Source: a virus. From it: DNA of 29,405 bases. Positions 4,471 to 26,900 of the stretch are shown one piece after another. Positions within the stretch are counted from its first letter, which is position 1. Each line of letters begins with the position of its first letter. The stretch is taken from the IMG/VR virus record IMGVR_UViG_3300023180_000286, positions 1 to 29,405 of that record; one strand, written 5' to 3'. Under the pieces are notes generated by a model that was not told the origin of the DNA, made no database searches, and saw nothing but the letters and a program-made list of their open reading frames with translations. A program made the position numbers and the translations under genes.

Positions 4471-4494
4471 ATAAGACAGTCAATAAAGTCTTAT
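4471..4494 (+). promoter_or_regulatory. Hairpin enclosing the start codon of the next gene
   Basis: ATAAGAC (4471-4477) and GTCTTAT (4488-4494) form a perfect 7-bp inverted repeat with a 10-base loop. The first two bases of the ATG at 4493 are in the right arm. Ribosomes finishing the upstream gene (stop at 4468-4470) would be positioned to open it, so it may couple translation of the two genes. Confidence 0.5.
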
Positions 4495-5158
4495 GAGTTG
4501 TTTAATCACCAACCTTCCATCAGTTGAAGTATGGGTTCGTAAAGAATATCTTACAGATCATCAAAGTGGACACGGTGAATTTGTTAAAGGCGTTTGGGTT
4601 TCGGCAAAGTCGATTCCTGGACGCGCTTTTTATTTTGAAACTTATTTGCCAGAATATGCGGCAATGTATGATAAGTTACCCATAAGCGCGTTTGTCTCGT
4701 CGCCGGAAACACCTAGTCCAGACATGAATCTGCCAAACCTACAATTTTGGAACTGTATGGACTATGGTGTGGTGAGTATTGATAAAAAATTCATCGGTAG
4801 TATGGACTTTGAGTGCTATACACGCGACTTTGGTATTCAAAAAGGCACTTATATATGCACAATTGACAATTATCACCGTGACCCAGACATGGTTGACTGG
4901 GCAACGAGTGAAAATCCTGCCGAACACAAATCTCATAATCTGATTGAACTTGAAAATGGTCAATATGCACTGTACCCGAACAATAGATTACGTATTTTTG
5001 ACAATAGTTTGACACCTGTCGAACCAAAAATACCAGATTTTAAAGTTTCGACTCAATATTATCAAGTTGAGAATGGTTATGATCGTCTTGGAATGGGGCG
5101 CGAGGACGAATATCACTGGAAAACTGCCAAAGAGCGTGAAGAAGAGGAAAATAAATAA
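4493..5158 (+). CDS. 221-residue protein of unknown function
   Basis: It starts MSCLITNLPSVEVWVRKEYL and is beta-rich and aromatic-rich, with segments GVWVSAKSIPGRAFYFETYL (about 36-55) and NLQFWNCMDYGVV, then a Lys/Glu-rich tail (KTAKEREEEENK). There is no signal peptide or membrane helix. It has five Cys, including CYTRDF and YICTI. Between the glycosyltransferase group and the baseplate genes it could be a morphogenesis or minor structural protein, but no motif shows that; I recall similar proteins only as conserved cyanophage hypotheticals. No Shine-Dalgarno is present and the start lies in a hairpin stem. Confidence 0.82.
   Translation: MSCLITNLPSVEVWVRKEYLTDHQSGHGEFVKGVWVSAKSIPGRAFYFETYLPEYAAMYDKLPISAFVSSPETPSPDMNLPNLQFWNCMDYGVVSIDKKFIGSMDFECYTRDFGIQKGTYICTIDNYHRDPDMVDWATSENPAEHKSHNLIELENGQYALYPNNRLRIFDNSLTPVEPKIPDFKVSTQYYQVENGYDRLGMGREDEYHWKTAKEREEEENK
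5150..5157 (+). promoter_or_regulatory. Possible late promoter motif AATAAATA
   Basis: It differs from the TATAAATA late motif only at the first base and lies 57 bases before the ATG at 5215, but it overlaps the Lys/Glu-rich 3' end and stop of the preceding gene, where such A-rich runs arise easily. Weaker than the three intergenic late motifs. Confidence 0.35.
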
Positions 5159-5506: not shown

Positions 5507-5908
5507 ATGGCAGAACAAAGGGTATCGAGATCATTTAAAGACATTAATTTATCCTTTGTTCCTCATCCAGTAACAAAGGATCTACAAATACTGAAAAATG
5601 AGAATGCGATTCGTAGATCTGTAAGAAATATTGTAGAGACTATCCCTACAGAAAGATTCTTTAATTCATTGTTAGGATCTGATGTGCGAGGTAGTCTATT
5701 TGAATTTGTAGATTTTGGTACTGCATCAACAATTCAAGAACAAGTTGTAACTGCTATACAAAATTTTGAACCAAGAGTTGATAATGTTTTTGTTCAGGTT
5801 TATCCAGAACCAGATCAAAATGCTTTTGAAATTGTAGTATTTTTTGACATTATTGGGCAGGAGTTTCCGACACAAGAATATACATTCCTCTTAGAGGCAA
5901 CAAGATAA
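5507..5908 (+). CDS. 25: gp25-like baseplate wedge subunit
   Basis: 133 residues, against 132 for T4 gp25. It shows the gp25/GPW family pattern: a helical N-terminal part (NAIRRSVRNIVETIPTERFF, 33-52), the GSDVRGSLFEFVD segment (58-70) and the hallmark FEPRV at 87-91, followed by beta strands ending LLEATR. gp25 is a core baseplate wedge protein near the inner tube-sheath junction in contractile tails, and its EPR motif is widely conserved. It is the first gene after a late promoter and lies 3 bases before gp6. No Shine-Dalgarno. Arginine codons switch here: six of nine are AGA. Confidence 0.95.
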   Translation: MAEQRVSRSFKDINLSFVPHPVTKDLQILKNENAIRRSVRNIVETIPTERFFNSLLGSDVRGSLFEFVDFGTASTIQEQVVTAIQNFEPRVDNVFVQVYPEPDQNAFEIVVFFDIIGQEFPTQEYTFLLEATR

Positions 5909-5911
5909 AAA

Positions 5912-7807
5912 ATGCCTTTTACTAAATTTACCAATCTAGACTTTGACCAGATAAGAGATTCAATCAAGGACTATCTACGTGCCAATTCTACGTTTACGGA
6001 CTTTGATTTTGAAGGATCGAACTTTTCTGTATTGATTGATACCCTCGCATATAACACTTATATTACTGCATTTAATAGTAATATGATTGTGAACGAATCT
6101 TTCTTGGATTCTGCAACATTGCGCGAGAATGTAGTATCTCTGGCAAGAAATATTGGATATGTTCCTAGATCTAGAACGGCATCAAAGGCATCTATAACCT
6201 TCTCTATTGAGAATATAACAGGAACCCTTACTGCCACTCTTAAAAGAGGATTAGTTTGTGTTGGAGAGGCAAATGACGCCACATATACATTCTGTATTCC
6301 AGAGGATGTAACCGCAAATGTTATTGATGGAACAGCGACATTTGAAAATCTGGAAGTCTATCAGGGAACATATCTAACGAAAAAATTCTTATATGATGGA
6401 TCTTTAGATCAAAGATTTATTCTAAACAATTCTTATATCGATACATCAACTCTTTCTGTTTATGTTTCAGAAACAGAAAGCGAATTGGGATTAGAATATA
6501 AACTTGTAGATAATATACTCAACGTTGACGCAAATACAAGAATATATTTACTTCAAGAAATTCAAGATGAAAAATATGAACTTATTTTTGGTGATGGAAT
6601 AATAGGCAAAAAACTTGGAGAAAATGACGATGGAATCTATGTAACGGCAAATTACATCATAACTGATGGAATACAAGGAAACGGAGCCAGAGTATTTTCT
6701 TTTGCTGGAAGTGTTATAAAATCTGATGGAACTATATTGGAAACTGGTAATGTTTCTATAACCACCAATAATCCTTCTTCAAATGGATCTGACATAGAAT
6801 CTATTAATTCAATTAAATATTATTCTCCAAGGATTTACTCCGCACAGAATAGGGCAGTAACATCAAGAGATTATGAGGCAATAATTAAACAAATTTATCC
6901 AAATGCAGAATCTGTTGCAGTTGTTGGGGGAGAAGAACTTGATCCTCCAGAATATGGAACTGTTGTTCTAAGCGTTAAACCAAAAAATGGTACATATGTT
7001 TCAGATTTTGACAAATCAAGAATTCTTGGTGATTTAAAACAATACACAATATCTGGTATAAATCAAAAGATTATAGATCTTAAGATATTATATGTGGAAA
7101 TAGATTCTGCTGTGTATTATAATAATTCTCAAGTTTCCAATTCTAATACTCTTAAAACAAGTGTTATTGATTCTTTAACAAAATATTCTGAATCTGTAGA
7201 TCTCAATAAGTTTGGTGGGAGATTCAAGTATAGTAAAGTACTTCAAACTATTGATAACACTGATGCTGCGATTACATCAAATATTACAAAAGTTAAAATT
7301 AGAAGAGATTTAAAAGTAGCATTAAATCAATCTGCACAATATGAACTATGTTTTGGAAATAGATTTCATGTAAATCCTAAAGGTTATAATATTAAATCCA
7401 CAGGATTCCGTATTTCTGGAGAAGCAGATACGGTATATCTTACTGATGTACCAAATGAAGATCTCAAAACTGGAAATATAGCAGTTGTAAAAACTTTGAG
7501 TGATGGAACTATACGTGTTATATCAAAATCTTTTGGGACAGTTGATTATATTAAAGGGGAAATTAAATTAGGATCTTCCGTTATAGTATCTACTGTAAAG
7601 GAAAATGGTATTATTGAAATTCAAGCATACCCAGAATCTAATGATGTAATTGGATTAAAAGATTTATATTTGGTGTTTGATATTTCAAAAAGTCAAATAA
7701 ATATGCTGAGAGACGTAATCGCTTCTGGCGATGAAATAACTGGAAATCTCTTTACAAGAGAATACTATACATCAAGTTACTCAAACGGGAATCTAACAAG
7801 AAACTAA
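5912..7807 (+). CDS. 6: gp6-like baseplate wedge protein (J-like)
   Basis: 631 residues, close to T4 gp6 (660). The N-terminus (MPFTKFTNLDFDQIRDSIKD) and the segment DTLAYNTYITAFNSNMIVNE (about 48-67) are typical of gp6/baseplate J-like wedge proteins. The hallmark YSAQNRAVTSRDYEAII followed by PNAESVAVVGGEELDPPEYG lies around residues 308-350. gp6 dimers form the ring that joins the wedges around the hub. It starts 3 bases after gp25 and ends 1 base before the giant gp7-type gene, so all three are surely one transcript. Length and domain order look normal, unlike the downstream neighbours. Confidence 0.95.
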   Translation: MPFTKFTNLDFDQIRDSIKDYLRANSTFTDFDFEGSNFSVLIDTLAYNTYITAFNSNMIVNESFLDSATLRENVVSLARNIGYVPRSRTASKASITFSIENITGTLTATLKRGLVCVGEANDATYTFCIPEDVTANVIDGTATFENLEVYQGTYLTKKFLYDGSLDQRFILNNSYIDTSTLSVYVSETESELGLEYKLVDNILNVDANTRIYLLQEIQDEKYELIFGDGIIGKKLGENDDGIYVTANYIITDGIQGNGARVFSFAGSVIKSDGTILETGNVSITTNNPSSNGSDIESINSIKYYSPRIYSAQNRAVTSRDYEAIIKQIYPNAESVAVVGGEELDPPEYGTVVLSVKPKNGTYVSDFDKSRILGDLKQYTISGINQKIIDLKILYVEIDSAVYYNNSQVSNSNTLKTSVIDSLTKYSESVDLNKFGGRFKYSKVLQTIDNTDAAITSNITKVKIRRDLKVALNQSAQYELCFGNRFHVNPKGYNIKSTGFRISGEADTVYLTDVPNEDLKTGNIAVVKTLSDGTIRVISKSFGTVDYIKGEIKLGSSVIVSTVKENGIIEIQAYPESNDVIGLKDLYLVFDISKSQINMLRDVIASGDEITGNLFTREYYTSSYSNGNLTRN

Positions 7808-7808
7808 T

Positions 7809-10800
7809 ATGATACAGACTGGATTTGAATCTAGAGTTAAGGTTCAGCAAATTATTGAGAGCCAACTTCCAAGTTTTATTTTGGATGAAAGTCCAAATGC
7901 GTCAGAGTTTTTAAAGCAATATTACATATCACAAGAATATCAAGGTGGTCCAATTGATATTGCAGAAAATTTAGATCAATATTTGAAATTAGATAATTTA
8001 ACGCCTGAAGTAATTGTTGGGTCAACATCTTTATCTGCAAATATAACAGATTCTGATACTGATATTACGGTAGATAGTACAAAAGGATTTCCAGATCAAT
8101 ATGGTCTATTTAAAATAGACAATGAAATTATTACGTATACTGGAAAAACAGCAACTACATTTACCGGATGTATTCGTGGATTTAGTGGAATTACTGCATA
8201 TCATCAAAATCTAGATCAAGAAGAATTAGTATTTACGAAAAGCAATAAATTAAACCACACTTCTGGTTCAAAAGTAGAAAACTTAAGTTCTTTATTTTTA
8301 AAAGAATTCTATGAAAAAATAAAGTATACTATTGTAAATCAGTTACAAAAAACAGATTTTACTTCTGGATTGAATGTGGGAACATTTCTAAAAGAAGCAA
8401 AATCTTTTTACACAGCAAAAGGAACGGATGAATCATTTAGAATTTTATTTAAAGTTCTGTACAATGAAGATCCAAAAGTTATAAATTTAGAAAAATATTT
8501 AATTAAACCTTCTTATGCAGATTATGTAAGGAGAGAAATTGCAATAACGGAAGTTATTACAGAAAATGCCGATATTGGGCGATTGGTAGGACAAACTATC
8601 AGAAAAACTACAGATGATCAAACCAGTGCATCAGTTTCTTCTGTAGAACCTTTTACTAGAAATAATGATTCTTACTATAAAATTTCGTTGTTTGTTGGAT
8701 ATGACGAACCAAGAGCAGTAGAAGGAAATTTTGTAATTACACCGAATACAAAAACAACTTTATCAGCACCTGCAGGTTCAAATGTAATAACTGTAGATTC
8801 TACAATAGGATTTGCAGAATCTGGCACTATAATATCCGAAGGAAATATAATTACCTATACTGAAAAAAGTATAAATCAATTTTTTGGATGTTCTGGTGTA
8901 GTTAGTGATATTCAAAAAAATGTATTAGTTAGATCTGACGAAACTTATTATGGATATGAAAATGGCGACTTAACAAAAAAAGTAGAATTTAGGATTCTTG
9001 GAGTCTTATCGGATTTTGTTGATGAGACCGTAAAAGTGGCGGAAGGGGATGAAATAGGAATTGCATATCTTGGTGATAACGTTGGCAACCCACAAGAAAA
9101 TAAAACTTATAAGCAAATATTTGCTAATTCTTGGATCTATAATACAGCAGCAAAATATAGTGTAAATTCTTTAGAATCAAATTATCAACTTGCTAGTAAT
9201 GTAGACAAATCAAGTCTTAAAGTTGGTGACAGAGTAGAATTGATAGAAAGAGACACTGAAACCATCACAGAATCTTTCAATAGTCCTTATGTTGATGAAA
9301 TATTAGATGTTGATGTTGTTGGAGTTGCAGGATCTTTTGCAACAAATTCTTCAAAAAAATATGACCTTAGAAGAATTATCAACACTGCTCAAAGCACTGG
9401 AGTGTCATTAGAATATAATTCTAATATAACTTCAGATATCTTAAATTTATATACAGATAAGAATGATTATGCTTATGTGGCATCCAATTCTTTACCATCT
9501 TCGGAGATATTTGGAGGAGTTAATAATTACAGATATAATATAACAAAACAAACAAACGGATTTACAATTAACTCCGAAGATAATCTTTTTGATTTTGATA
9601 CAGATTCTCTTTATGCAACTATTGGTAATAGTATAAATGTTCCTTTCATAACAGGCGATGCTGTTTATTATAGTCCTTCAGATGCACCATTAGTTGGTTT
9701 AGAAACAGGACTATATTATGTTCAGGTTTTAAATGATCCTAAAAAAATAAGATTATATTTAACTAATGAAATAATAGGTGGTCCAGATTATTTAAAATTT
9801 AGTGCTCCTGAACCAGATTTTGGTTCACATTTATTTGTATTATATTCACAAAAATCAAATGAGATTGGTGTTCAAAAAATATTCAAAAAGTTTCCATTAA
9901 ATACGCAAATAAAGGGTTCTGGAGAATCAACAATTCCAGGAACAACAAGTGGAATGTTAATTAATGGTGTAGAAATTTCCAATTATAAGTCTTTGGATAA
10001 AATTTATTATGGTCCTCTAGAATCTATTGATGTATTGAATGGTGGTTCAAATTATGACGTAATTAATCCACCATTTGTCAGTATTTCTACAAGTTTAACA
10101 AATGCGCTTGCTCAACCAGTTCTGAGTGGAAAAATTGATTCTGTTTTTGTAGATGCACAGGAATATAATATTGATAAGATACTTTCTGTGGATATTTCTG
10201 GTGGAAATGGTAGTGGTGCAGTTTTAGAACCGGTTTTAGTTAAGAGATATAGGGACGTTTCTTTTGATGGACGTTTGAACACAAATTCAGGAGGAATAGG
10301 AACTGCAACTGGAACTATTACATTTTTATCAGATCATAATTTCCAAAATGGTCAAGAAGTGATATACAATTCGAATGGAAATTCGAGTTTGGTAATTGGT
10401 TCTGGGACAACAACACTTTTAGATAGGACTTCATATTTTGTTAGAGTTGAAAATAATACTACAATTTCATTATTTGAATCTCTTTCAGATTATAACTCTG
10501 GATCCAATAAAATAGGATTTTCTACAGGAACTGAAGGAACTCATAAGTTCCAGACAATTACTTTTGAAAATACAATTTCTGATATAAAAGTTATAGATGG
10601 TGGATCTGGATATACTAATAGAAAATTAATTGTTTCTCAATCCGGAATTTCTACTGTAAATGATAGTATCAATTTTGTTAATCACGGATTCAAAACTGGA
10701 GAATTAATTACTTATAATTTTGAAACCGCAGGATTATCCGGACTTTCAACAAGTAATCAATACTTTGTGATTAAAGTTAATGACGATTCATTTAGAATTT

Positions 10801-13800
10801 GTGATGCGGGAATTGGTGGGACAATAACAACCAATTTTGATCGAGAGAAGTATATCAAACTCTCTAACACTGGTTCTGGATATCAGTATTTTAGTTATCC
10901 AGATATTGTAGTTTCCATTAAATATAATCCTGTAGGTTTTTCAACAACTACACAAGTATATCAAAACATTTTAGCAACACCAAAAGTAAAAGGTAGCATT
11001 ACAGATTTATATCTGTATGAGAAAGGAACTGGTTATGGATCTTCAATTATCAATTTTGAAAAGAATCCAACGATAGAACTGAAAATTGGTAAAAATGCCT
11101 CATTAACTCCACAAATATTAAATGGTATGATTGATTCTGTCGTTGTGCAGAGTGGAGGTGTTGAATATTATTCGATACCAGATTTAATTGTAACTGATCC
11201 TTCTGGTGCAGGATCTGGTGCTAATTTAAGAGCTGTAGTAACCAATGGTAGTATTACAGATGTTAAAGTTGTAAACACTGGAATTGGATATTCTACTTCA
11301 TCTTATATTACCGTAAAACCATCAGGATCTGGAGCATTTTTTAGACCTAAAATTAGATCTTTGACAATAAACAATACAAGTAGATTTGGAAGTGAATTAT
11401 TAATAGAATCAACCAATAAGTTAAAATATACTGTTTCTGGTTACTTTGAATCATTGAGAAATTCTCTTGGTGAAAGTGATGCAAATTCTATAGAACCAAA
11501 ACTTTCTGGAATTATTGGATGGGCATATGATGGAAATCCAATATATGGACCATTTGGTTATTCTGATCCAGACGATGAAAATTCTATAATATCTTTGATG
11601 TCTTCTGGATATACTTCAAATGTTTCAAATATTGAAGATAGACCAAGTGTATTTGCTGAAGGATTTTTTGTAGAAGACTATAAGTTTACAAATAGCGGCA
11701 CTCTTGACGATAAAAATGGTAGATTTGCAAAGACAAGAGAGTTTCCAAATGGAATATATGCCTATGTAGCGACTGTAAATTCTGCAGGAGTTCCAGTATT
11801 CCCATATTTTATAGGAAATGATTATCAATCAAAAATTTTAGATGAAAATATCGATTTAAATCAATCATTTGATTTCCAATCTTCTAATCTTTTAAGAAAT
11901 ACTTTCCCATATAAAGTTTCTGATGTAGGTGCTGGTTATGATTACTTTACTGAAATTGATGATATATCAAAACAGAGAATTGTCGTAGAGTCTGTATATG
12001 CTGGATCAGTAGATGGTTTTGAAATAATAAGTGCTGGATCTGGATATTCTGTAGGAGATAAATTAAACTATTCAGACACTAATACTGGTGGTGGAGGATT
12101 AGATGTACAAGTTTCTTCCATCAAAGGAAAACAAATTTTTGATATAAAAACAGATACGGTTTCATATAATGATTCCATATTAGTTTGGAATTATAATCAA
12201 GGTGTTGACATATTTACATCTTCAGATCATATATTGGATACTAATAATTATGTCACTATTTCTGGTCTGTCCACAAATTTATCCGAACTGAATGGTATTC
12301 ATAAGATCACTGTATCAAAAAATACTACAAAAATAATATCTGATATAGAAAGTGCTACTTCTATTGGTGGAACAGAAATTTACGTTTCGACCATTCCAGA
12401 GAAATTATATTCTGGAGATAATATTGGCATCGGAACAGAAACATTAAAAGTATTGAACATTTTTAGAAATAAAAATGTATTGAGAGTAGAAAGAGGTGTA
12501 ACAGGAACATCTCATGCTGTTGGAACTGCGGTTACATACAAATCAAATAGATTTACAATACCACAAAATGTTAATTACTTTGAATCAGAACGGAATCACA
12601 AAATCTATTTCAATCCATATGAATCTGTAGGATTTGGCACTATTGCTGGAATATCAACCAGTTCTACTTTCTCATTTGGTCCATCTTTAGAAACTAGAAG
12701 TATTCCATCAAAATCAATTTATATTGAAAACCATCCATTTAAGACAAATCAACAAATTGTTTACACTCTTACAGGAAACAATGTTGCAGTATCTACGGAT
12801 GGTATTAATCTAATACCTGGAGGTTTACCATCAAGTCTTTTTGTTATAAACAAAGGAAGAGACTTAATTGGATTAAAAACTACCATAGACTCTTCAGAAC
12901 TATTCTTTCATGAAAATTTAAATGTTGATGATGATCGGTACTTGTTTGAAACTTCCGTCAATCAAATAACTGCTAATGTTTCTAGAATAAAATCAACAGT
13001 ATCTGTTTCCACCTTCCACAATCTTTCTGTTGGAGATTCTGTATCTATTACTGCTATTCCAAATCTTACTATAGGAATTGGAACAACAACATTTATTAAA
13101 GTTTCTAGAGATACTCTAACTGAAAAAATTCTTATTGATCCTATTGGTTTTAGTTCCGCTGGAGTAAGCACATCAAATAATTCTATAACCATATTAAATC
13201 ATGGATTAGTAACTGGCGATAAGATTAACTATTCTGCCGAAGTTATTCCTGAAGGTCTTTATAATGGAGAGTTTTATGTTTATAAGTTGAACGAGGATAC
13301 CATCAAACTCTGTGAGACTTACATTGATTCTGTAAATAATCCTCCAACGGTAATAGGTATTGGAAGTACTGGTGGAGTAGATCAAACACTATCTAAAATA
13401 AATCCTCAACTTAAAATTACAAAAAATAATAATGTAGTATTCAATTTGACAGATTCTTCTGTTTCTGGATATAACTTAAAAATTTATTATGATAGTGAAT
13501 TTAAAAATGAGTTTGTATCCAGTGGATCCACGGATGTTTTTACTGTTGAGACAGTTGGAACCGCATTAACATTTACATATCTTCCTAATCAAAATATCCC
13601 CGATAAATTATATTACTCTTTAGAAAAATCTGGAAGTATATCTACGTCGGATAAAGAAGTAAAAAATTATTCTGAAATATCTTTCAGTGACAGTGACTAT
13701 AATGGATCTTATAATATTATATCAGTTGGTAATACAACATTCGATTTTGTCTTGAAAGAGAATCCAGAAAGACTTTCATATAGTCTTGACGAATGTGATA

Positions 13801-16800
13801 CTCTGGAGTATACGACCAATTCGAAAACTGCTAATGGACCTATACACAAGCTTAAAGTTCTTTCTGGTGGAGTTGGATATAAAAAATTACCAGCACTTTT
13901 GAGCGTTGATTCCGTTAACGGACAAAATGCTGTTGTTATACCGAAATCAAGTGTTATTGGTTCTTTGAAAGATATAAAAATTATAAATGATCAATTTGAA
14001 TATCCATCAGATCCAACATTAAAACCAGTCCCAAGAATTTCACCATCTATAATTGTTAAAGATGCCAATACAATATCTTCTGTTGATGTTACCTACGGTG
14101 GAAACGGTTATTTCTCTTCTCCAGACGTAATTGTCGTAAATGAAAGTACTGGAAAAATAATAGACGCTGGACTTTTGACAGCAGAATTGTCTGGCAGTTC
14201 AATTCAATTCATAAATGTAGAATCTGAACCAAAAGGAATACCAGATGAATCTGTAAAAATAGTTACTATCAATAATAGTAATGGAATTACTGTTCAAACT
14301 GTTCAATCATCTTCTAGTGGAATATTTACTTGTTCTATAACAAAACCATCAACAGAATATCAATTTAATGCTGGCGATAAGGTTTTTGTTGAAGGAATAC
14401 AAAGATTTGATCAAATTGGATCTGGATTTAACTCCGAAGATTATGGATATAAACTTTTTGACGTACAAGATTACACCACATCTTCTCCATATGATTTAGT
14501 AACAATTAATGTAAGTGGACTGACTACAAATACTGGAATTGCAAAAACTGTTCAAGAAGGATCTGGAACTTTAATTAATGGTGCAGATTATCCAATTTTC
14601 AATGTCAATGCAAAAAAATCATCTTTCCTCCAAGACGAAAGACTGTTAAGTTTTACAGGAAATGATCTTGATTTATTGCTCAAAGATTTTGATGGTTTCT
14701 ATTTGAAAGTGGAGGGTAATTATGATTTACAAGTTGGAGAAATTGTTAAAGGTGGAGATAGTGGATCTTTAGCGACAATAGATTCTATCCAAAGATCTGA
14801 AACCGTATGTGACGTTAGTTATTCCACTTTGAGAAACGTTGGTTGGAATGATAATGTAGGAGAATTGAATTTAGATTCTCAAGTAACTCCAGATAATGAT
14901 TATTACCAAACTTTATCTTATACTATAAAGAGTAGTAAAGAGTATGCCGAATTAGAATCACCAGTTTTTAGTATTCTTCATACTGCCGGACTTAAAAATT
15001 TCGCTGATACTGTAGTTCAAAAAACTGCTCCAAAAATTGGAATAGGGTCTGATGACAATACAATTTATTTGTACGATTTGATTGATGAAAAGAGAGTAGA
15101 TACTATTTACAATTTTGATTTTGCTAGAGATTACAATGTACTGGATGGATCTTCAAAACTTATTCAACTTCAGAATAAGAGACTTGTAGATTATTTCTTC
15201 TTTGATTCAACTGCAACAAGAGTATTGACAGTAGATGATTTCACTGACCAATTCTCTTATTTTGAAGACGAACCAAATCCGTTTGTCAATATTCAAAAAT
15301 TAAATGATGAAACTGATTATTATAATTATTTGATTAGAGTTACTGATAGAAACAATACAGAAATTCAATTTACGGAAATTGTAATATTGAATGATGGTAC
15401 AAATGATTTCTTTATGCAAAAGGGTGAAGTATTCAATTCCGAATCGTCATATGGAACATATGACATTTATACAGATGATTTTGAAGATTCTTACTTCAGA
15501 TTTATCCCAAATGATCCTTTTGATACTGATTATGAACTTAAGATTATTACAAATACATTTACATCTTCTTCTGCAGGTGTTGGAACAACTTCTTTAGGAT
15601 TTATTGATTTAATATCTTCTATTGGAATTGCAACTCCAGGAATTACAACGTCACTATCCAATTTGGACGCTAATAGTATTGGATCTCTATATGCTAATGT
15701 TCAAGTTATAGATGATACAAGTGGTGATATGAATTTTGTTGAATTGTATGTTACTCACGATGGAACAAATACTTTCATGTCAGAATACTATGGAGATTCC
15801 GAGTTTGAAACTTCTAGTTATTCTGGAAACTTTATCGGAACATTTAATTCCGATATTTCTGGAGGTATTTTATCCTTAAGTTTTACAAATACTGGTTTAA
15901 GTAAGAATACTGTAAAAGCAAAATTAGTTGGATTTGGTTCAACAACTATAGTTGGTGTTGGGCAAACTTATAGATTTAAGAGTGGGGATCAGTTTGATGG
16001 TTCTGAAAGAAGTGTAATTTACCAATCAAATTATGCTGAAGGAGTAGGAAGTGCAACTTTAGTATCAGTTGATAAGTTAAAGTTTAATGCAATAAAATCT
16101 TTAGTTGAAGTTAGTATCGGATCTACTAAAGCTGTTCATAACGTTATGATGATTCAGGATACTAATGATGCATATGTCCAACAAGCTGCATTATTATCTG
16201 TCAATGGAACTTCTGTATTCGATGATGCTATTGGTATAGGAACTTTTGGGGTAGATAATTCTGGATCCACTTTTGATCTTACATTTACTTCGGATCCAGA
16301 ATATGCAGCATATAATTTAGAGATAACATCTTTCAGTCAATGTTTCTACGAAGAAATAGACATAATCAATGATCCACTCCCCTTGGAATATGGTGATGTT
16401 AGTGAAGCATCTGTAGATTTGGAATTCTATAATTCCATCAATGGCGATAGGATCAATAGAACTAATTTTGAACTTTTGTCAAATAAAGTTAGAATCTTTA
16501 AGAAAGTGTTTAATCCACAAAATTCCAGTATTTTGAATCCTGGCACTGGAACATTCAATATAAAAAACCACTTCTTTAGAAATAACGAAGAATTAGTATA
16601 TACACCAAAATCATCTGTTGTTGGTCTAGCAACAACTGCAATGACATATGATGATGGATCTATAACCAATCTTCTACCTTCAAAAGTCTTTGCAATTGTC
16701 ACAAATGAAGATTCTTTCCAAATTTCTACATCTAAAGGTGGATCTGCAATAACATTTACAGATCTTGGTGGAGGAAATATTCACCAGTTTGAAATGCTTA

Positions 16801-19346
16801 ATAAAAACAACAAAACAATTGTTGTTTTGGATGATCTGATTCAACATCCATTAAGTTTTTCTGGATTTAGTCATCAGTTATCTGATACTCTTGGTGCTGG
16901 GACATCAATATTTGCATTAAGTGGAATTGCTTCAATTGGACCTGCAGATATTTTAAATATAAATGGCGAATATATGAATGTTGTCAATGTTGGATTGGGA
17001 ACTTCTTCTATTGGACCTATAACAAATGATGGATCTTTCAGTCTTGTTCAAACAGAAAGAGGATTTGTAGGAACTTCCGCATCATCACATCCAGCATCTT
17101 CAAAAGTTGATATCTATCGTGGTGCTTTCAATATAGTAGATAATCAGATTCACTTCACTTTCCCACCAAGAGGAAACCCTCAAATCGATAAAACACCAGC
17201 AAATTTAGATTATGAAACTTCCACATTCAATGCAAGAGTGTTCTTAAGATCTGATTATACCAACAATAAAATATATGATGATATATCTAACGATTTTAAT
17301 GGTATTGGAAGAACTTTCACAATGAAGGTTGGTGGTGGAAATACCTCCGGAATAGGAACAGAAGGATCAAGTGGAATAGTTCTGATTAATGGTATTTTCC
17401 AGCAACCATCAACTATTAACAATCCTTTTGGAAACTTTGATGTTATAGAAACTACATCTCCATATCCAGGAATAACTACCTTTGTATTTTCTGGAATAAC
17501 TAAACCAAATGAAGATCCAATTGTTTACTATTCTTCAGAACAAGACATCAATATAAATGAGACTCCAAGAGGTGGAATAATAATTTCTTATGGATCAACT
17601 ACTGGTCTTGGATTTGCACCTCTTGTAGGCGCTTCTGTGACCGCAATAGTGGGTGGTGGAGTCATTACTGGAATTACAACAAGTGGTGTTGTTAGAGGAT
17701 CATATGGTTCTGGTTATAATGGATTGTCTGGTATTGGAATTTCTGTATATGAAGAGGGTCATTCTGGAACAGCAGCAGAAATAACTGCTTCAATTGGCGT
17801 TGGAGGAACTTTATCATTTAATATTGTCAATGGTGGAACAGGATATACAAGTCCTTCAATATTTGTTTCACCGCCTTCTTACGAAAATCTGTCAGTTGTT
17901 GGTGTTTCTAGATTTGGTATTGGTGCTACAACTACAACTGGAATTGGATTATCAATAAGCCTTAAAGTTGGCCCAATAGTTGGATCTTCCACCACTTATT
18001 TTGGAGTCACTGATTTCGATATCACCAAACTTGGATATAGTTTCGAAAGAGGTGATGTGTTCAAACCTGTTGGACTAGTTACAGATGCTTCACTTTCTTC
18101 GCCATTAGAAGAGTTTGAAATTACAGTATTGGATACTTATTCCGATAAGTTCTGCGCTTGGGATTTTGGAAAGTTAGATTTCATCGATTCTATCGCAGAT
18201 TTACAAGATGGTTCAAGAGTGGCATTCCCATTATTTTACAATGGTGAACTACGTAGTTTTGAGAAAGATCTCAATGGAGATTTAAATCTCGCAAATAATC
18301 TTTTGATATTCATTAATGGAATATTACAACAACCAGGATTATCTTACACATTTGACGGTGGAACTACATTCCAGTTTACAACACCTCCCAAAAAAGACGA
18401 CAACATATCAATCTATTTTTATAAAGGACTTGATAGTGATGTTGCAAGTTTTAATGTTAATACAACAATTGAAAAAGGTGATATTGTACAAAAAGATGGT
18501 CAAGATCAAAGGACTGTTTCGGATCTCTCCTTCTCTGATAGATTTGAAACAGAAATCTATTCTGGATCTTCTGTAGATGATTCATCTTGGAAAACTTTAG
18601 ATTGGACCAAGCAAAAAGTAGATAAAAAAGTTAATGGTGAAGTTGTATCTAAATCAAGAGATTCCTTAAAGGCACTGATTTTCCCAACATCTAAACTTAT
18701 AGGCGATCTTTCAGTTAGCGATACTGAATTGTTTGTAGATAATATTGAGATGTTCCAATATGAAAATCCAGATGAAGACCCATTTGATTTGTTAGTTGTT
18801 AGTGGTGTTTCTACAGATCCTTCAGGGAATGTTGAATATATTTCCAACTTGAGATTTATTAATGGATTAACTGGAAATATTATTGGCATTGCATCTACAT
18901 CTATACCATCACTCGCAATAGAATTTACACTTGAAGATATTTTAACCTCTCCTTTACAGATTGGATATCCAATTTATATTACAGATACTAGAGTTGGAAA
19001 TGGTGTAAGATCAACCATTTCTACAGATTCTGAAGTAGTGGGAATTGGTACAATATATTTGGACAATATTTACTATATTAGTGATTTGTCGGTTGTAACT
19101 GGTAATGTTGGTATTATCACATGTCGTGTCGATACAAATTCCAATTTAGTGGGAATAGATACTACTGGAATTGTTGGAAAGTACTCTTGGGGTAGATTGT
19201 CAAATGCTGCTAACATTTCAAGAACAAACCCCATTTCTATTGGAGTTACTGGAAGAGTTGTATCAGGATTATCTACATATCCAACAGTAATGAGAAGACT
19301 TGGAGATACTACATTGAGAGCAACTGGTGCAATTTATGAAATTTAA
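7809..19346 (+). CDS. 7: Giant gp7-type baseplate wedge protein with repeat expansions
   Basis: 3845 residues in the place of T4 gene 7 (1032 residues), between gp6 and gp8. The gp7 relationship rests on the N-terminal part: FYTAKGTDESFRILFKVLYN (200-219) then LVGQTI (259-264), matching from memory T4 gp7's FYSTKG...FKVLYNEE...LVGQTI. In cyanophages this position is sometimes annotated VrlC or virion structural protein. The rest is beta-rich repeats: four T-Y-T-G/RGxxGTxxxH units, at least six HGFxTG-type units (about 600-3000), nine GGxGY-type motifs, a YHYH-like DGNPIYGPFGY (1241-1251) and two INGIxQQP motifs (about 3194 and 3501). No signal peptide or coiled coil is visible. It probably builds the wedge periphery and perhaps reaches the host surface; the latter is inference. 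The frame is unbroken. Confidence 0.85.
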   Translation: MIQTGFESRVKVQQIIESQLPSFILDESPNASEFLKQYYISQEYQGGPIDIAENLDQYLKLDNLTPEVIVGSTSLSANITDSDTDITVDSTKGFPDQYGLFKIDNEIITYTGKTATTFTGCIRGFSGITAYHQNLDQEELVFTKSNKLNHTSGSKVENLSSLFLKEFYEKIKYTIVNQLQKTDFTSGLNVGTFLKEAKSFYTAKGTDESFRILFKVLYNEDPKVINLEKYLIKPSYADYVRREIAITEVITENADIGRLVGQTIRKTTDDQTSASVSSVEPFTRNNDSYYKISLFVGYDEPRAVEGNFVITPNTKTTLSAPAGSNVITVDSTIGFAESGTIISEGNIITYTEKSINQFFGCSGVVSDIQKNVLVRSDETYYGYENGDLTKKVEFRILGVLSDFVDETVKVAEGDEIGIAYLGDNVGNPQENKTYKQIFANSWIYNTAAKYSVNSLESNYQLASNVDKSSLKVGDRVELIERDTETITESFNSPYVDEILDVDVVGVAGSFATNSSKKYDLRRIINTAQSTGVSLEYNSNITSDILNLYTDKNDYAYVASNSLPSSEIFGGVNNYRYNITKQTNGFTINSEDNLFDFDTDSLYATIGNSINVPFITGDAVYYSPSDAPLVGLETGLYYVQVLNDPKKIRLYLTNEIIGGPDYLKFSAPEPDFGSHLFVLYSQKSNEIGVQKIFKKFPLNTQIKGSGESTIPGTTSGMLINGVEISNYKSLDKIYYGPLESIDVLNGGSNYDVINPPFVSISTSLTNALAQPVLSGKIDSVFVDAQEYNIDKILSVDISGGNGSGAVLEPVLVKRYRDVSFDGRLNTNSGGIGTATGTITFLSDHNFQNGQEVIYNSNGNSSLVIGSGTTTLLDRTSYFVRVENNTTISLFESLSDYNSGSNKIGFSTGTEGTHKFQTITFENTISDIKVIDGGSGYTNRKLIVSQSGISTVNDSINFVNHGFKTGELITYNFETAGLSGLSTSNQYFVIKVNDDSFRICDAGIGGTITTNFDREKYIKLSNTGSGYQYFSYPDIVVSIKYNPVGFSTTTQVYQNILATPKVKGSITDLYLYEKGTGYGSSIINFEKNPTIELKIGKNASLTPQILNGMIDSVVVQSGGVEYYSIPDLIVTDPSGAGSGANLRAVVTNGSITDVKVVNTGIGYSTSSYITVKPSGSGAFFRPKIRSLTINNTSRFGSELLIESTNKLKYTVSGYFESLRNSLGESDANSIEPKLSGIIGWAYDGNPIYGPFGYSDPDDENSIISLMSSGYTSNVSNIEDRPSVFAEGFFVEDYKFTNSGTLDDKNGRFAKTREFPNGIYAYVATVNSAGVPVFPYFIGNDYQSKILDENIDLNQSFDFQSSNLLRNTFPYKVSDVGAGYDYFTEIDDISKQRIVVESVYAGSVDGFEIISAGSGYSVGDKLNYSDTNTGGGGLDVQVSSIKGKQIFDIKTDTVSYNDSILVWNYNQGVDIFTSSDHILDTNNYVTISGLSTNLSELNGIHKITVSKNTTKIISDIESATSIGGTEIYVSTIPEKLYSGDNIGIGTETLKVLNIFRNKNVLRVERGVTGTSHAVGTAVTYKSNRFTIPQNVNYFESERNHKIYFNPYESVGFGTIAGISTSSTFSFGPSLETRSIPSKSIYIENHPFKTNQQIVYTLTGNNVAVSTDGINLIPGGLPSSLFVINKGRDLIGLKTTIDSSELFFHENLNVDDDRYLFETSVNQITANVSRIKSTVSVSTFHNLSVGDSVSITAIPNLTIGIGTTTFIKVSRDTLTEKILIDPIGFSSAGVSTSNNSITILNHGLVTGDKINYSAEVIPEGLYNGEFYVYKLNEDTIKLCETYIDSVNNPPTVIGIGSTGGVDQTLSKINPQLKITKNNNVVFNLTDSSVSGYNLKIYYDSEFKNEFVSSGSTDVFTVETVGTALTFTYLPNQNIPDKLYYSLEKSGSISTSDKEVKNYSEISFSDSDYNGSYNIISVGNTTFDFVLKENPERLSYSLDECDTLEYTTNSKTANGPIHKLKVLSGGVGYKKLPALLSVDSVNGQNAVVIPKSSVIGSLKDIKIINDQFEYPSDPTLKPVPRISPSIIVKDANTISSVDVTYGGNGYFSSPDVIVVNESTGKIIDAGLLTAELSGSSIQFINVESEPKGIPDESVKIVTINNSNGITVQTVQSSSSGIFTCSITKPSTEYQFNAGDKVFVEGIQRFDQIGSGFNSEDYGYKLFDVQDYTTSSPYDLVTINVSGLTTNTGIAKTVQEGSGTLINGADYPIFNVNAKKSSFLQDERLLSFTGNDLDLLLKDFDGFYLKVEGNYDLQVGEIVKGGDSGSLATIDSIQRSETVCDVSYSTLRNVGWNDNVGELNLDSQVTPDNDYYQTLSYTIKSSKEYAELESPVFSILHTAGLKNFADTVVQKTAPKIGIGSDDNTIYLYDLIDEKRVDTIYNFDFARDYNVLDGSSKLIQLQNKRLVDYFFFDSTATRVLTVDDFTDQFSYFEDEPNPFVNIQKLNDETDYYNYLIRVTDRNNTEIQFTEIVILNDGTNDFFMQKGEVFNSESSYGTYDIYTDDFEDSYFRFIPNDPFDTDYELKIITNTFTSSSAGVGTTSLGFIDLISSIGIATPGITTSLSNLDANSIGSLYANVQVIDDTSGDMNFVELYVTHDGTNTFMSEYYGDSEFETSSYSGNFIGTFNSDISGGILSLSFTNTGLSKNTVKAKLVGFGSTTIVGVGQTYRFKSGDQFDGSERSVIYQSNYAEGVGSATLVSVDKLKFNAIKSLVEVSIGSTKAVHNVMMIQDTNDAYVQQAALLSVNGTSVFDDAIGIGTFGVDNSGSTFDLTFTSDPEYAAYNLEITSFSQCFYEEIDIINDPLPLEYGDVSEASVDLEFYNSINGDRINRTNFELLSNKVRIFKKVFNPQNSSILNPGTGTFNIKNHFFRNNEELVYTPKSSVVGLATTAMTYDDGSITNLLPSKVFAIVTNEDSFQISTSKGGSAITFTDLGGGNIHQFEMLNKNNKTIVVLDDLIQHPLSFSGFSHQLSDTLGAGTSIFALSGIASIGPADILNINGEYMNVVNVGLGTSSIGPITNDGSFSLVQTERGFVGTSASSHPASSKVDIYRGAFNIVDNQIHFTFPPRGNPQIDKTPANLDYETSTFNARVFLRSDYTNNKIYDDISNDFNGIGRTFTMKVGGGNTSGIGTEGSSGIVLINGIFQQPSTINNPFGNFDVIETTSPYPGITTFVFSGITKPNEDPIVYYSSEQDININETPRGGIIISYGSTTGLGFAPLVGASVTAIVGGGVITGITTSGVVRGSYGSGYNGLSGIGISVYEEGHSGTAAEITASIGVGGTLSFNIVNGGTGYTSPSIFVSPPSYENLSVVGVSRFGIGATTTTGIGLSISLKVGPIVGSSTTYFGVTDFDITKLGYSFERGDVFKPVGLVTDASLSSPLEEFEITVLDTYSDKFCAWDFGKLDFIDSIADLQDGSRVAFPLFYNGELRSFEKDLNGDLNLANNLLIFINGILQQPGLSYTFDGGTTFQFTTPPKKDDNISIYFYKGLDSDVASFNVNTTIEKGDIVQKDGQDQRTVSDLSFSDRFETEIYSGSSVDDSSWKTLDWTKQKVDKKVNGEVVSKSRDSLKALIFPTSKLIGDLSVSDTELFVDNIEMFQYENPDEDPFDLLVVSGVSTDPSGNVEYISNLRFINGLTGNIIGIASTSIPSLAIEFTLEDILTSPLQIGYPIYITDTRVGNGVRSTISTDSEVVGIGTIYLDNIYYISDLSVVTGNVGIITCRVDTNSNLVGIDTTGIVGKYSWGRLSNAANISRTNPISIGVTGRVVSGLSTYPTVMRRLGDTTLRATGAIYEI
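10021..11330 (+). repeat. Cluster of GGxGY-type coding repeats in the gp7-type gene
   Basis: Five degenerate units occur within about 440 residues: NGGSNYD (near 10038), DGGSGYT (10597), KGTGYG (11023), SGGVEYYSIP (11148) and NTGIGYST (11275). Each is preceded by a short strand of the type IxDVxVV and usually followed by PxxxV. Further copies lie near 12030, 13862, 14094 and 17828. At the DNA level they have diverged, so they are old protein repeats rather than recent tandem duplications. Confidence 0.7.
11508..11561 (+). other. YHYH-domain-like motif inside the gp7-type protein
   Basis: Residues 1234-1251 read GIIGWAYDGNPIYGPFGY. This resembles the core of the YHYH domain (an alDGfPIYGP-type stretch) found in secreted and surface proteins. 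The name-giving YHYH tetrapeptide is not seen nearby, so it is at best a partial or variant member. Confidence 0.55.
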
Positions 19347-20920: not shown

Positions 20921-23900
20921 ATGGCACAAAAAACAGATTTAAACGTTAATCCATATTTTGACGACTTTGATCGCGCAAAAAATTTCTACAAGGTCTTATT
21001 TAAACCGGGATATCCAGTTCAAGCAAGAGAACTGACCACTCTACAGTCAACATTACAAAATCAAATCCAATCTTTCGGAAGTTATATTTTTAAAGATGGG
21101 ACAGTAGTAAGTCCAGGTAATATAACTTATGATAATCAATTTTATTCGGTGAAGTTAAATTCATCTCTTTTTGGAATTGATATTTCTACATATATTGATA
21201 ATTTTGTTGGGAAGAAAATAACTGGACAAACTTCTGGAAGTACAGCAAAACTTCAATATGTTGCATATCCAGATGGTGGTGAAGTAGAAGATATAACGAT
21301 ATATGTAAAATATGTAGATTCCAACGATAATTTTGTCTTCGATCCATTTGAGGATGGAGAATCTTTAATTGCTGATGAAAATATTGTTTATGGAAATACT
21401 ACAATAACTGCAGGAACTCCATTTGCATCTTTAATTGCATCTGAAGCAACTTCTACAGGTTCTTCTGCATCTATTGGGGCAGGAACATACTTTATTAGAG
21501 GATTTTTTGCTGAAGTTTCTCAGCAAACTATAATATTAGATAATTATACAAATACACCATCATATAGAGTTGGTTTAAAAATTGAAGAACTTTTGGTTAA
21601 TGCAAAAGATGATAATTCTCTTTATGATAATGCTAAAGGATTTTCAAATTACGCTGCTCCAGGAGCAGATAGACTTAAGATAAATTTAACTCTGACCAAG
21701 AAAGATATTTCTGATAAAAATGATACTGATTTTGTAGAATTACTTAGAGTAAAAGATGGTAGAATTAATAAAATTGAAGCTAAAACACAATTAAGTAGAC
21801 TTGGTGATTATATTGCAGAACGAACCTATGAAGAGTCTGGACACTATGCTCTAGAAAATTTTGGCATTACTCTCCACAATTCTTTAAATAATAAACTTGG
21901 AAATGATGGATTATTTTTTGATACTCAATTTACCGATGAGCAGAATAGTCCTTCAGACGATTTGATGTGTGTGAAAGTTTCTCCAGGAGAAGCTTATGTT
22001 GGTGGTGTAAATATTGAAAAACCAGTAGGAACTATTTTAGATATAGAAAAACCAAGAGATGTTGAGTCTTCAACCTCAAATGTTCCTTTTGAAATGGGAA
22101 ATCTTTTAAGAGTTAATAATGTATATGGAACAGCACGCCAAAGGGGAGAAATAGAACTTTATGACAAACCATTTGGTTTGGGTGGATCAAAAATTGGAGA
22201 CGCTAGAGTATATACTTTCAGTTTATCTGGAGATTCTTATCAGGATGCATCTACAAATTGGGATTTATATTTGTATGATGTTCAAACATATACTACTTTA
22301 ACTTTGAATACTCCAGTTTCTGGTTTAGGTCTAGTTACGTCAACATTTATCAAAGGTAAGAGTAGTGGTGCTAGCGGTTATGCTATAGATTCTGGTACAG
22401 GAAATACTGTTTCTATCAGGCAGACATCAGGAACTTTTTCTGCTGGAGAGCAGTTGATAATCTCTGGTATTGATGCTTCTGCTACTGCAGAATCAGTAAC
22501 GATATATGCAACAAAAGATATTAAATCAGTATTTCAAGCCGCTAGTGGTGATTTTACAGAATTTAGAGCAAATACTGTTTTAGATTCTTTCAATCTTCCA
22601 AATGGAATTGTTGGTGGAACTATCAGTGGCGGAAATACACTAGAAAGTCCAGGAAAGATATTTACCGGAGTTAAAGTAGGAGATATTATTAGATATCAAA
22701 CTACATCTGGAGATGAAACTTTTAATGAAGTGACAGCAGTATCAAATAGTTCACTTACAATTGGGATAGGTACAACTGTTCCTGGTGTTTCTGATGGATC
22801 AGTTACCAATGGAACATATGCATCCATTAAATTGGGATATCCTGTTTTAAGAAATCGAGAACAAGCATATCTTTACGTACAACTTCCAGAACAAAATATA
22901 CAATCTGTAGATCTTTCTGGATCCACTTTAGAAATTTCTGATCAAATAGTACAACAAACTACTAATGCATCTGGGCAATTAACATTCGATTTATCAGCAT
23001 TGTCTGGAATAACAAGTGCTTTCTACAAATCTTTTGATGAAGAGCGTTATTCTGTTCATTATAGTAATGGTGGAATAGGAACAATAACTTCAGATTCATT
23101 TAGTCTTACAAATAATGAAGTAACCATTGAAGGTTTATTGGCAAACCAAACTGGAGACGTTACCGTAAATGTTACACTTATAAAAAATTCTATTCAGAGT
23201 AAAATTAAAGAGTATACCAGAAGTACAGTTATTGATGTAATATATTCCAGAAACTCTAATTCTGGATCCGATCCAAATAACTCCATCAATGATGGATTAA
23301 CATATAACTCTGATGCTTATGGATTGAGAGTTCAAGATGAAGAAATTTCATTAAATTATCCAGACGTTGTAAAAGTTCTTGCTATTTATGAATCACTTGG
23401 AACTTCAGAACCAGTATTAGATAGTATACAATTTGCAGATTCTTCTATTGTATCTAATGCTATTATTGGAGAAAATATTATTAGTTCAGCCAATAATGTA
23501 GTTGCTAGAGTAGTAACCAAAGGTATCAATACAGTTCAAGTTGTATATTTAAATCAAGATAGATTTATTGCTGGTCAGAATGTAGTATTTGAGGAAAGTA
23601 ATTCTTCAGCATCTATCTTATCAATAACTCTTGGTTCATATAGAGATATAACCCAAACGTATGTATTAGACAAAGGTCAAAAAGAACAATACTATGATTA
23701 TTCGAAAATAGTTAGAGGTTTAAATACACCTACACCTTCAAGAAGACTAAAAATTATTTTTGACCATTATGTAGTCCCATCTTCAGATAATGGGGATGTA
23801 TTTACCATTCTTAGTTATGATGATGATAGATTTTTGGAGGATATTCCAGAAATAGGTTCAATTCAAGTAAGAGCATCCGATACTTTAGATTTTAGACCAA

Positions 23901-26900
23901 GAGTACCACAGTTTACAGATACTAACAGATCTCCATTCGATTTTGGATCAAGAGTATTTGGAAGCGTACCGAAGTTTATTTTAAAACCTAAAGAAGAATC
24001 CATTTTAGGATACACATACTATCTTCCAAGAACTGATAAGATATTTTTAGATCTTTATGGAAACTTTGTAATTGAAAAAGGAATATCTTCGAGAAGGCCA
24101 GTAGCACCTGTAAATACAAATCCCGATCAATTGATGGAATTGGGAACTATAGATTTACCACCATATCTTTACGATCCCTCCGAAGCAATTGTTAATACGG
24201 TTGATAATAGAAGATATACGATGAGAGATATTGGAAAACTTGAAGATAGAATAGAAACTCTTGAGAATATTACCTCATTATCACTTTTAGAGTTAAATAC
24301 ACAAACTCTTCAAGTTCAAGATGCTCAAGGGAATAATAGATTTAAGACTGGATTTTTTGTAGATGATTTTAAAGATAATTCATTTGTAAATCAAGATTTT
24401 TCATCTGTTCAAGTGGATACAGAAAATCAAGAATTGCAAACTATTTCTAGTATTAATACTCTAGAAGCTCAAATTGCTCCCGCACAAAATATTAGTGATG
24501 AAGAATTAGATTTAACCACAAACTTTGATCTTTTAGATTCTAATGTACAAAAAAGTGGTAGTGCAGTTACATTAAAATATGACAGTGTTCCGTGGATTGA
24601 ACAACCATTAGCAACTAGAGTTGAAAATGTTAATCCTTTCAATGTTGTTGTATATAATGGAACTGTAAAACTATCGCCAAAACGTGATACATGGGTTAGA
24701 ATAATTAGACTTGCTGATCGCACTGTTAGAAGAAACATAGTAAGAACTGTGCAGAGAAGGGTTCAGTTCAGGATCGTTACTCAAACTTTTCAGCGTCCTG
24801 GACGATTTGGTGGGGGAACTTGGCAACAAAGAAGACGTGTGCCAGTACCACCTCCAGGTCCGGTTTCAAGTGTAAGTGTATCATCAAGAGATGTCCTTGT
24901 TTCTTCTGGAATAGACCGTTTTATGCGTTCCAGAAATACGACTTTCAATGCAAAGAATTTAAAACCATTAACAAGATTCTATCAATTCTTCGATGGTAAT
25001 GGAAATGTTGATTTTATACCAAAACTCATTGAAATTTCGCCAAATGCATCTCTGACATCTTATGGTGCTTTGGGCACTTTCCGAGTTGGAGAAACAGTAA
25101 TTGGTTATAAAGGTGGTAGAAAAATTAGTTTTAGGGTTGCACGCGCAAACCATAAAGAAGGTCCATATAATGCACCAGAAAAAGTCTTTAATATAAATCC
25201 ATATGTTAAAACTGAAAATTTGAGTTCTGCATATAGCCAATCCACAAAAGCTCTCAATGTGGATATATATGCATTATCTGCACAAGCACAAGGAAAATAT
25301 TCTGGATACCTTGAAAAAGGTATGAAACTTGTTGGTCAAACCAGCGGAGCAGTTGCATATGTTAAAGATCTTAGACTTATTAGTGATAATTATGGAGATC
25401 TGATCGGATCATTCTTTTTGAGAAATCCCTTCGTATCACCACCACCTGCTGTAAGAATTGGTACAGGTACAAAAACATTCAAGTTGACAAATAGTCCTAC
25501 AAATGCCGAACCTTTACCTGGAAGTAAATTACAATCTACTGCAGAAAGAACTTATAGTTCTTTAGGTAGATATGAAGTAAGACAAAGAGTGAGAACTATT
25601 ACAACTACAACTACTATTACTCGTGTTCGCAGAGGAGACCCTCTTGCACAATCATTCTCCGTTGGCGATGGATCTCTCCCAGATTCAAATGGTCAACCAG
25701 AAGATGCAAATGGTGCATTTTTAACAGCAGTAGATTTGTTCTTTGCAAATAAACCAGCTACAAATGATCCTGTAAGAATTGAGGTTAGAACTGTAGAATT
25801 GGGAACTCCAACTCTGAATGTTCTTGGAGAACCAGTAATATTAACTCCAGATCAGGTAAATGTTTCCAGAAATGGTGAAGTTGCAACAAAAGTTACTTTT
25901 GAGTATCCAATTTATTTGGCACCTGGAGAAGAGTATGCTATTGTTGCGCTTGCAGAAACATCGGATGATTATGAATTATGGATTGCTGAAATGGGAGAAA
26001 AAACCATCAATACGCAATCTTTACCAAACGCTGAAGCAGTAATTTATTCTAAACAGTTCTCTCTTGGAAGTTTATTTAAATCTCAAAATGGATCTATATG
26101 GACTGCAAACCAATATCAAGATTTGAAATTTAAACTTTACAAGGCAAATTTCACATCTGATACAGGAACTGCATTCTTCTACAATCCAACTCTTGATGAA
26201 AGTAACGGATATGTTGAAAATTTAGAACCTAATCCATTAGTAACATTATCAAGAAACATTGCTCTTGGAATAACTACAGATACTGATTATAGTGCAGTTT
26301 TATCTGCAGGAAGACAAATTTCAGGATCTAATGGATATGGTTATGGTTTTATTGATGCAGTTGGTGGTGAGGTTTCAAATTGCAATATTACAAATAGTGG
26401 AACAAATTATCCAACAGGTACATTCAATAATTTAGAAACAACAACTATTGTAGGAGATGGATCTGGTCTTAGATTGAGTGTAACAGCTTCTGGTGGTTCT
26501 ATTACTGCAATTGCTGCAACAACAGCAAATGGTAATGGATATGTTGTTGGTGATGTTGTTGGTATAGTAACATCTCTCGGAGCAGGTGCAAGATTTACTA
26601 TTGGATCTATTAATGGAACTGATACTTTGTACTTAACGAATGTTCAAGGTGAAAGAGGTGCAGGTAAAGCATTCCAAGTAGGTGCTGCTTTAAGTTACTA
26701 TAATGATTCTGGAGATATTGTTTCTTTGGGTTCTACTACTATTACAGATAGAACTAGTGGCGGAGATAATTTATTCTCTGGAAATTATATTTCCGTCAGT
26801 CAATTTGATCATGGAATGTACTCTGGAACTGATAGAGTTGTACTTTCAGATATTGAACCAAATTCTGCAACATCTGCATTAAATTCTCCTTTAACAATAG

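Follow-up and report, generated by a model that had tools for sequence, protein, structure and literature searches.

The protein encoded at positions 7809..19346 of the window, the 29.4-kb viral fragment (29,405 nucleotides) analysed here, is best explained as a gp7 orthologue belonging to a T4-like cyanophage (Kyanoviridae), in which a split gp7 core bears two blocks of beta modules growing from it, and a probability of roughly 75% is assigned to this explanation as a whole. In such a scheme, a small gp7 core with fixed growth points would have had a beta arm of 1,500–2,700 residues built into its middle in the ancestor of the picocyanobacterial T4-like phages, pieces of the core lying 2,000 residues apart would come together again on folding, and six of these out-and-back arms would replace the outer baseplate of T4. 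The gene is a single open frame from ATG to stop, coding for 3845 aa (computed values of about 419 kDa and pI 4.5), and it lies in the slot between gp6 and gp8, downstream of gp25, within the order gp25-gp6-gp7-gp8-VrlC, so that the unbroken 11.5-kb frame at the gene 7 position noted in a preliminary description of the sequence was confirmed. The neighbourhood is as follows:

4493-5158, phage ferredoxin (phrog_3704), preceding the baseplate genes
5507..5908, plus strand, gp25, sheath initiator
5912..7807, plus strand, gp6, the expected wedge partner of gp7
7809..19346, plus strand, giant gp7, 3845 aa
19386..20915, plus strand, gp8
20921..28126, plus strand, VrlC-type baseplate protein, 2401 aa

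With phages of Synechococcus and Prochlorococcus as its relatives, and with both the ferredoxin and a gene of the Kyanoviridae gp96 family present, the window is assigned to a T4-like cyanophage. A ferredoxin is also found at the equivalent position in S-SKS1. The G+C content is about 39–44% across the first 5 kb and about 29–37% beyond 5 kb. The VrlC-type protein, also large, has an N-terminal part common to Vi01-like phages, a shorter stretch of which occurs in SPO1/Twort-like phages too.

The integrity of the frame was assessed among relatives. In S-SRM01 a collinear, uninterrupted frame of 3895 aa shows no gaps of at least 40 residues with respect to the giant, P-SSM2 has a collinear intact frame at the gp7 slot, and many IMG/VR contigs have the same start and show no stop over more than 3,800 codons, up to the end of the DNA retrieved. 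In addition, phrog_2885 ('baseplate wedge subunit', 4179 positions) covers residues 2-3304 of the giant with 3256 bits. The several ORFs present at the S-SKS1 locus (L002:14001-26387) could suggest that the giant is an artefact, with separate genes fused by an assembly join or by lost stop codons. Nevertheless, the S-SKS1 frame shifts three times at A-rich runs, the resulting pieces are collinear and overlap or adjoin, and the protein alignment runs on without loss across the breaks, which are therefore probably sequencing indels rather than separate genes. Given the intact collinear frames elsewhere, the artefact was rejected as practically impossible, and the separate genes or assembly join in relatives that the preliminary description had named as grounds for refutation were not seen. 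The broken S-SKS1 frame has left unannotated stretches in its RefSeq record. One IMG/VR contig carries a single in-frame stop inside an otherwise continuous gp7 homologue (L008:8497-8499), either an error or a real nonsense codon. A further homologue (L056) stops at 3655 aa and lacks any match to giant residues 2484-2886, and arm and tail therefore vary naturally in length.

Plain sequence searches were almost blank as regards the relationship to T4 gp7: tblastn with the T4 protein gave no cyanophage among the matches listed, BLASTP of the giant against it returned only a 32-residue match (FYTAKG...FKVLYNE), and no gp7 came up when PDB sequences were searched with the giant or with its profile. 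Profile-profile comparison was therefore needed. The cyanophage N-terminal profile, the check proposed in the preliminary description, aligned at 190-294 with T4-family gp7 724-813 (96%, E 4.7e-9) and, once the first inserted module was removed, cyanophage 13-294 aligned with T4-family gp7 646-813 (E 2.1e-9); in the controls for this N-terminal comparison, column shuffles of the T4 profile never exceeded 1.5%, and the reversed profile gave 0.3%. When the core pieces of 17 phages were concatenated, they matched T4-family gp7 640-891 at 98.8% in hhalign (E 1.3e-16), compared with at most 0.6% in 50 shuffles. The partner gp6 is a clear homologue of its T4 counterpart (99.9%, E 8e-34 against the T4 gp6 profile). 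A fold search was run with an AlphaFold2 model spanning residues 1-1200 (pLDDT 75.7 on average, core helices at low confidence), and the sole PDB match below 1e-3 was 9f4a, the gp7 of a T4-type Klebsiella phage (E 4.8e-4), with T4 gp7 ranked 9. TM-scores were low, as the model consists of domains strung into a long chain. Thus, profiles, gene order and fold search support the gp7-type protein previously proposed and, judged from sequence, the identity of the giant as gp7 holds, with homology of the core, resemblance to a solved gp7 fold and the order of the conserved elements all in agreement. The first ~640 residues of T4 gp7 have no counterpart in the giant, but these are not taken as defining, since compact gp7s are also devoid of them; the giant is a differently built gp7 rather than the T4 protein with an extension, as first supposed.

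It has been published that gp7 is absent from cyano- and pelagimyophages, with VrlC in its place (PMC7029224), and the near absence of BLAST similarity to T4 gp7 could be read in the same sense, the giant then having nothing but the position of gene 7. This is very improbable, since the profile match to T4 gp7 spans the whole core, VrlC is a separate, additional gene both in the window (20921-28126, the giant itself giving no match to VrlC families) and in HTVC008M, and the latter also carries the gp7 core. The statement is in fact contradicted by the profiles, because both phage groups possess a gp7 core plus a separate VrlC. Elsewhere, gp7 has been placed among the divergent non-cyanophage core proteins (PMC3037559). 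The HTVC008M protein at the gp7 slot (L364:9536-12586, 1016 aa), which carries the core, is annotated as 'head closure Hc2', a label that may be caused by its GxGY beta modules matching phrog_460.

The giant divides into core elements and added blocks:

7830..8006, plus strand, core element 1, helical, residues 8-66, weak match alone to T4 gp7 ~646-692
8007..8270, plus strand, insertion 1, one A-type beta module, residues 67-154
8271..8693, plus strand, core element 2, FYxxKG, residues 155-295, matching T4 gp7 ~724-813
8694..14840, plus strand, arm inside the core, modular beta structure, residues 296-2344
14841..15029, plus strand, core element 3, HPAG, residues 2345-2407, matching T4 gp7 865-897
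15030..19343, plus strand, C-terminal tail, residues 2408-3845, conserved in S-SRM01 and P-SSM2

Element 1 by itself is not significant against T4 gp7 (E 0.2), nor is its similarity to gp6 helices. When the remaining giant was scanned against the T4 wedge proteins, a single lead appeared (~2371-2429 against T4 gp7 ~864-920), while arm and tail have no counterpart in T4 gp8, gp9, gp10, gp11 or gp7 1-640. In the HPAG motif (YQxxSYxIxS...HPAG), histidine 2391 is invariant in all 161 sequences; the element aligns with T4 gp7 865-903 (probability 43%, E 2.5e-4) and scores 31.8 against the full T4 profile, 40 shuffles reaching at most 23.7. Taken by itself, this match is suggestive, its weight coming from the compact gp7s. 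The gp7-like signature is consequently not confined to the first few hundred residues, as had been thought, and the remainder, mostly beta with recurring modules as described, does have one T4 counterpart in the HPAG element.

The order element 1, FYxxKG, HPAG is constant across the 20 gp7s compared (419 to 6,198 aa). Compact proteins (XG4, 419 aa; pf16, 523; RHph_I1_18, 528; Desulfovibrio 7757, 586; BUCT-ZZ01, 607), a further set (Cr30, 767 aa; Mosig, 874; Melnitz, 896; phiM19, 1007; HTVC008M, 1016) and S-CREM2 (1937) contain all three elements arranged as in the giants, and the gp7s of T4, Aeh1 and F86 contain FYxxKG and HPAG, with a weak element 1 (E 0.01–0.2). The Desulfovibrio 7757 ORF is matched by T4 gp7 648-897 in tblastn (E 7e-3) and also, in two pieces, by Rhizobium gp7. 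FYxxKG and HPAG lie 56 residues apart in Desulfovibrio 7757, 143–181 in XG4, BUCT-ZZ01 and pf16 and 275–750 in the other compact proteins, about 50–100 in T4 gp7, and 1522–2676 in the large cyanophage proteins (2055 in the window giant), while the tail beyond HPAG ranges from 15 to 2670 residues among the gp7s compared (1440 in the giant). Since compact gp7s hold FYxxKG and HPAG close together, the arm is inserted within the core and the tail is appended to it. The interruption of a core common with T4 gp7 by an arm of ~2,050 residues seems new; no description of a split core was found in the PMC literature, a search outside which most subscription papers lie.

With respect to size, the giant is about 3.7 times as long as T4 gp7 (1032 aa), as the preliminary description had calculated. 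However, all the marine T4-like cyanophages examined have a giant in the gp7 slot, of 1,937–6,932 aa (S-CREM2, 1937 aa; S-PM2, 3048; S-SRM01, 3895; P-HM2, 4454; P-SSM2, 5195; S-ShM2, 6198; S-RIM8, 6395; S-SSM6b, 6932), the P-SSM2 protein being already annotated as gp7. The enlargement is therefore real, though neither new nor exceptional, 3845 aa being an ordinary size for this group. A gp6 tree built from 17 phages grouped all seven whose gp7 exceeds 1500 aa into one clade (97/92; 98% of bootstrap trees) adjoining the Pelagibacter and Methylophilales phages, whose gp7 is 874–1016 aa long; the tree is consistent with a single expansion of gp7, which it does not prove given the long branches of T4 and pf16. 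The freshwater cyanophage BUCT-ZZ01 has a compact gp7 of 607 aa, and a cyanobacterial host by itself is thus insufficient to explain gp7 size.

Structure models (1-1200 and 1110-2159) cover the giant up to residue 2159 and are nearly all beta beyond residue 260. Iterated HMMs detected six B modules (HGFxTGDxVxY), two A modules and several C modules (GxGY). The B modules and one recognizable domain are located at:

9618-9818, 10299-10565, 10635-10907, 12696-12893 and 13164-13427, plus strand, B modules in the arm
11505..11783, plus strand, YHYH-type domain (PF14240), residues 1233-1325, represented by its C-terminal half and devoid of the motif
16533-16814, plus strand, sixth B module, in the tail

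The PF14240 match, at 78.9 bits, is well above the Pfam cut-off of 25, and it covers profile positions 94-184 of 193; the YHYH motif is found in 0 of 206 homologues of at least 1450 aa, the histidine columns being lost. YHYH domains have been predicted to be zinc hydrolases (PMC7824862), a prediction that, because of this motif loss, is not applicable to the giant. A hydrolase role is consequently not supported, with half of the domain, motif included, missing and the histidine columns gone; as far as can be judged from sequence, the domain is more likely to serve in structure or in binding. In S-ShM2, a neighbouring protein (SShM2_094, L354:21940-23661) has an intact YHYH domain, followed by a region of alpha/beta-hydrolase appearance by eye that has no Pfam match; it is annotated as gp7 but has no FYxxKG motif, the real gp7 being the preceding 6198-aa gene.

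As for the function of these blocks, arm and tail might be mainly adhesins binding the host surface directly. Modular beta repeats and variable size are common among adhesins, the arm has weak structural matches to S-layer and biofilm proteins, and in Vibrio phage XM1 the spikes sit on loops of the gp7 orthologue, both inside its core domain and downstream of it (PMC10457771). Nevertheless, no carbohydrate-binding or catalytic domain was found in the giant, its YHYH-type domain being without the motif, the arm is conserved along its whole length among relatives rather than hypervariable, and VrlC and the fibre genes are separate candidates for host binding, so that an adhesin function is a minority possibility. 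With the 1110-2159 model, the fold search yielded no more than a weak hit to a baseplate protein of JBD30 (8rk3, E 8e-4, TM 0.09).

In the preferred architecture, the conserved core of ~290 residues (8-66, 155-295 and 2345-2407) would pack with two copies of gp6 to form the wedge core, as happens in T4 and XM1, wedge assembly being presumably conserved in the giant-gp7 phages. Between FYxxKG and HPAG, the ~2,050-residue arm would exit the core and must then come back, whereas the ~1,440-residue C-terminal tail would form a second block of small beta modules leaving the core. Six wedges would therefore place six large arms around the baseplate, a plausible idea already put forward in the preliminary description. 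These would replace the outer wedge of T4, which consists of the ~640 N-terminal residues of gp7 and, probably, of gp9–gp12, so that arm and tail, in six copies, would constitute an outer baseplate of about 2.5 MDa. Most probably the arms support or brace gp8, VrlC and the fibres; they may also be the first part to touch the cell, the host contact initially envisaged being a possibility. The S-CREM2 relative (1937 aa) is a virion protein, detected with 91 unique peptides (PMC10665884). It is improbable that the giant is cleaved post-translationally into a wedge part and detached peripheral parts: S-PM2 does have two adjacent genes (3048 + 175 aa), indicating that continuity is not strictly required, but element 3 lies far downstream and a cut in the arm would part the core pieces.

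Marine T4-like cyanophages are abundant, yet neither the PDB nor the literature searched yielded a structure of their baseplate. The gp7 identity, the core positions and the defined growth points make this baseplate interpretable, since the core map shows which stretches are expected near gp6 and which as outer arms, and the identification corrects the published claim of gp7 absence.

Among known systems, the closest are the phrog_2885 giants of S-SRM01 (QPX48159.1) and P-SSM2 (PSSM2_111), which share with the window gp7 the slot, collinearity and the three elements; the former is 57% identical to it over the first 500 residues, and the latter is about 1,350 residues longer, mostly in the tail. 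The compact proteins that occupy the gp7 slot in pelagi-, Methylophilales and alphaproteobacterial phages have the same elements in the same order, but are 419–1016 aa long with a short FYxxKG-HPAG spacing. This compact family is partly known as PF23786 (Baseplate_wedge), which is found in HTVC008M and RHph_I1_18 and did not reach E 1 against the window giant. T4 gp7 has the core at residues ~640-897 and the same gp6 and gp8 neighbours, whereas its ~640 pre-core residues are missing in the giant and it has neither the 2,050-residue arm nor the 1,440-residue tail. Finally, XM1 gp17 and TssG of the T6SS, of similar build (PMC6300606), would have the same role as a wedge scaffold with two gp6-type copies (PMC10457771, PMC6300606), a likeness drawn from published descriptions; they differ in their minimal size, XM1 gp17 bearing separate spikes on its loops.
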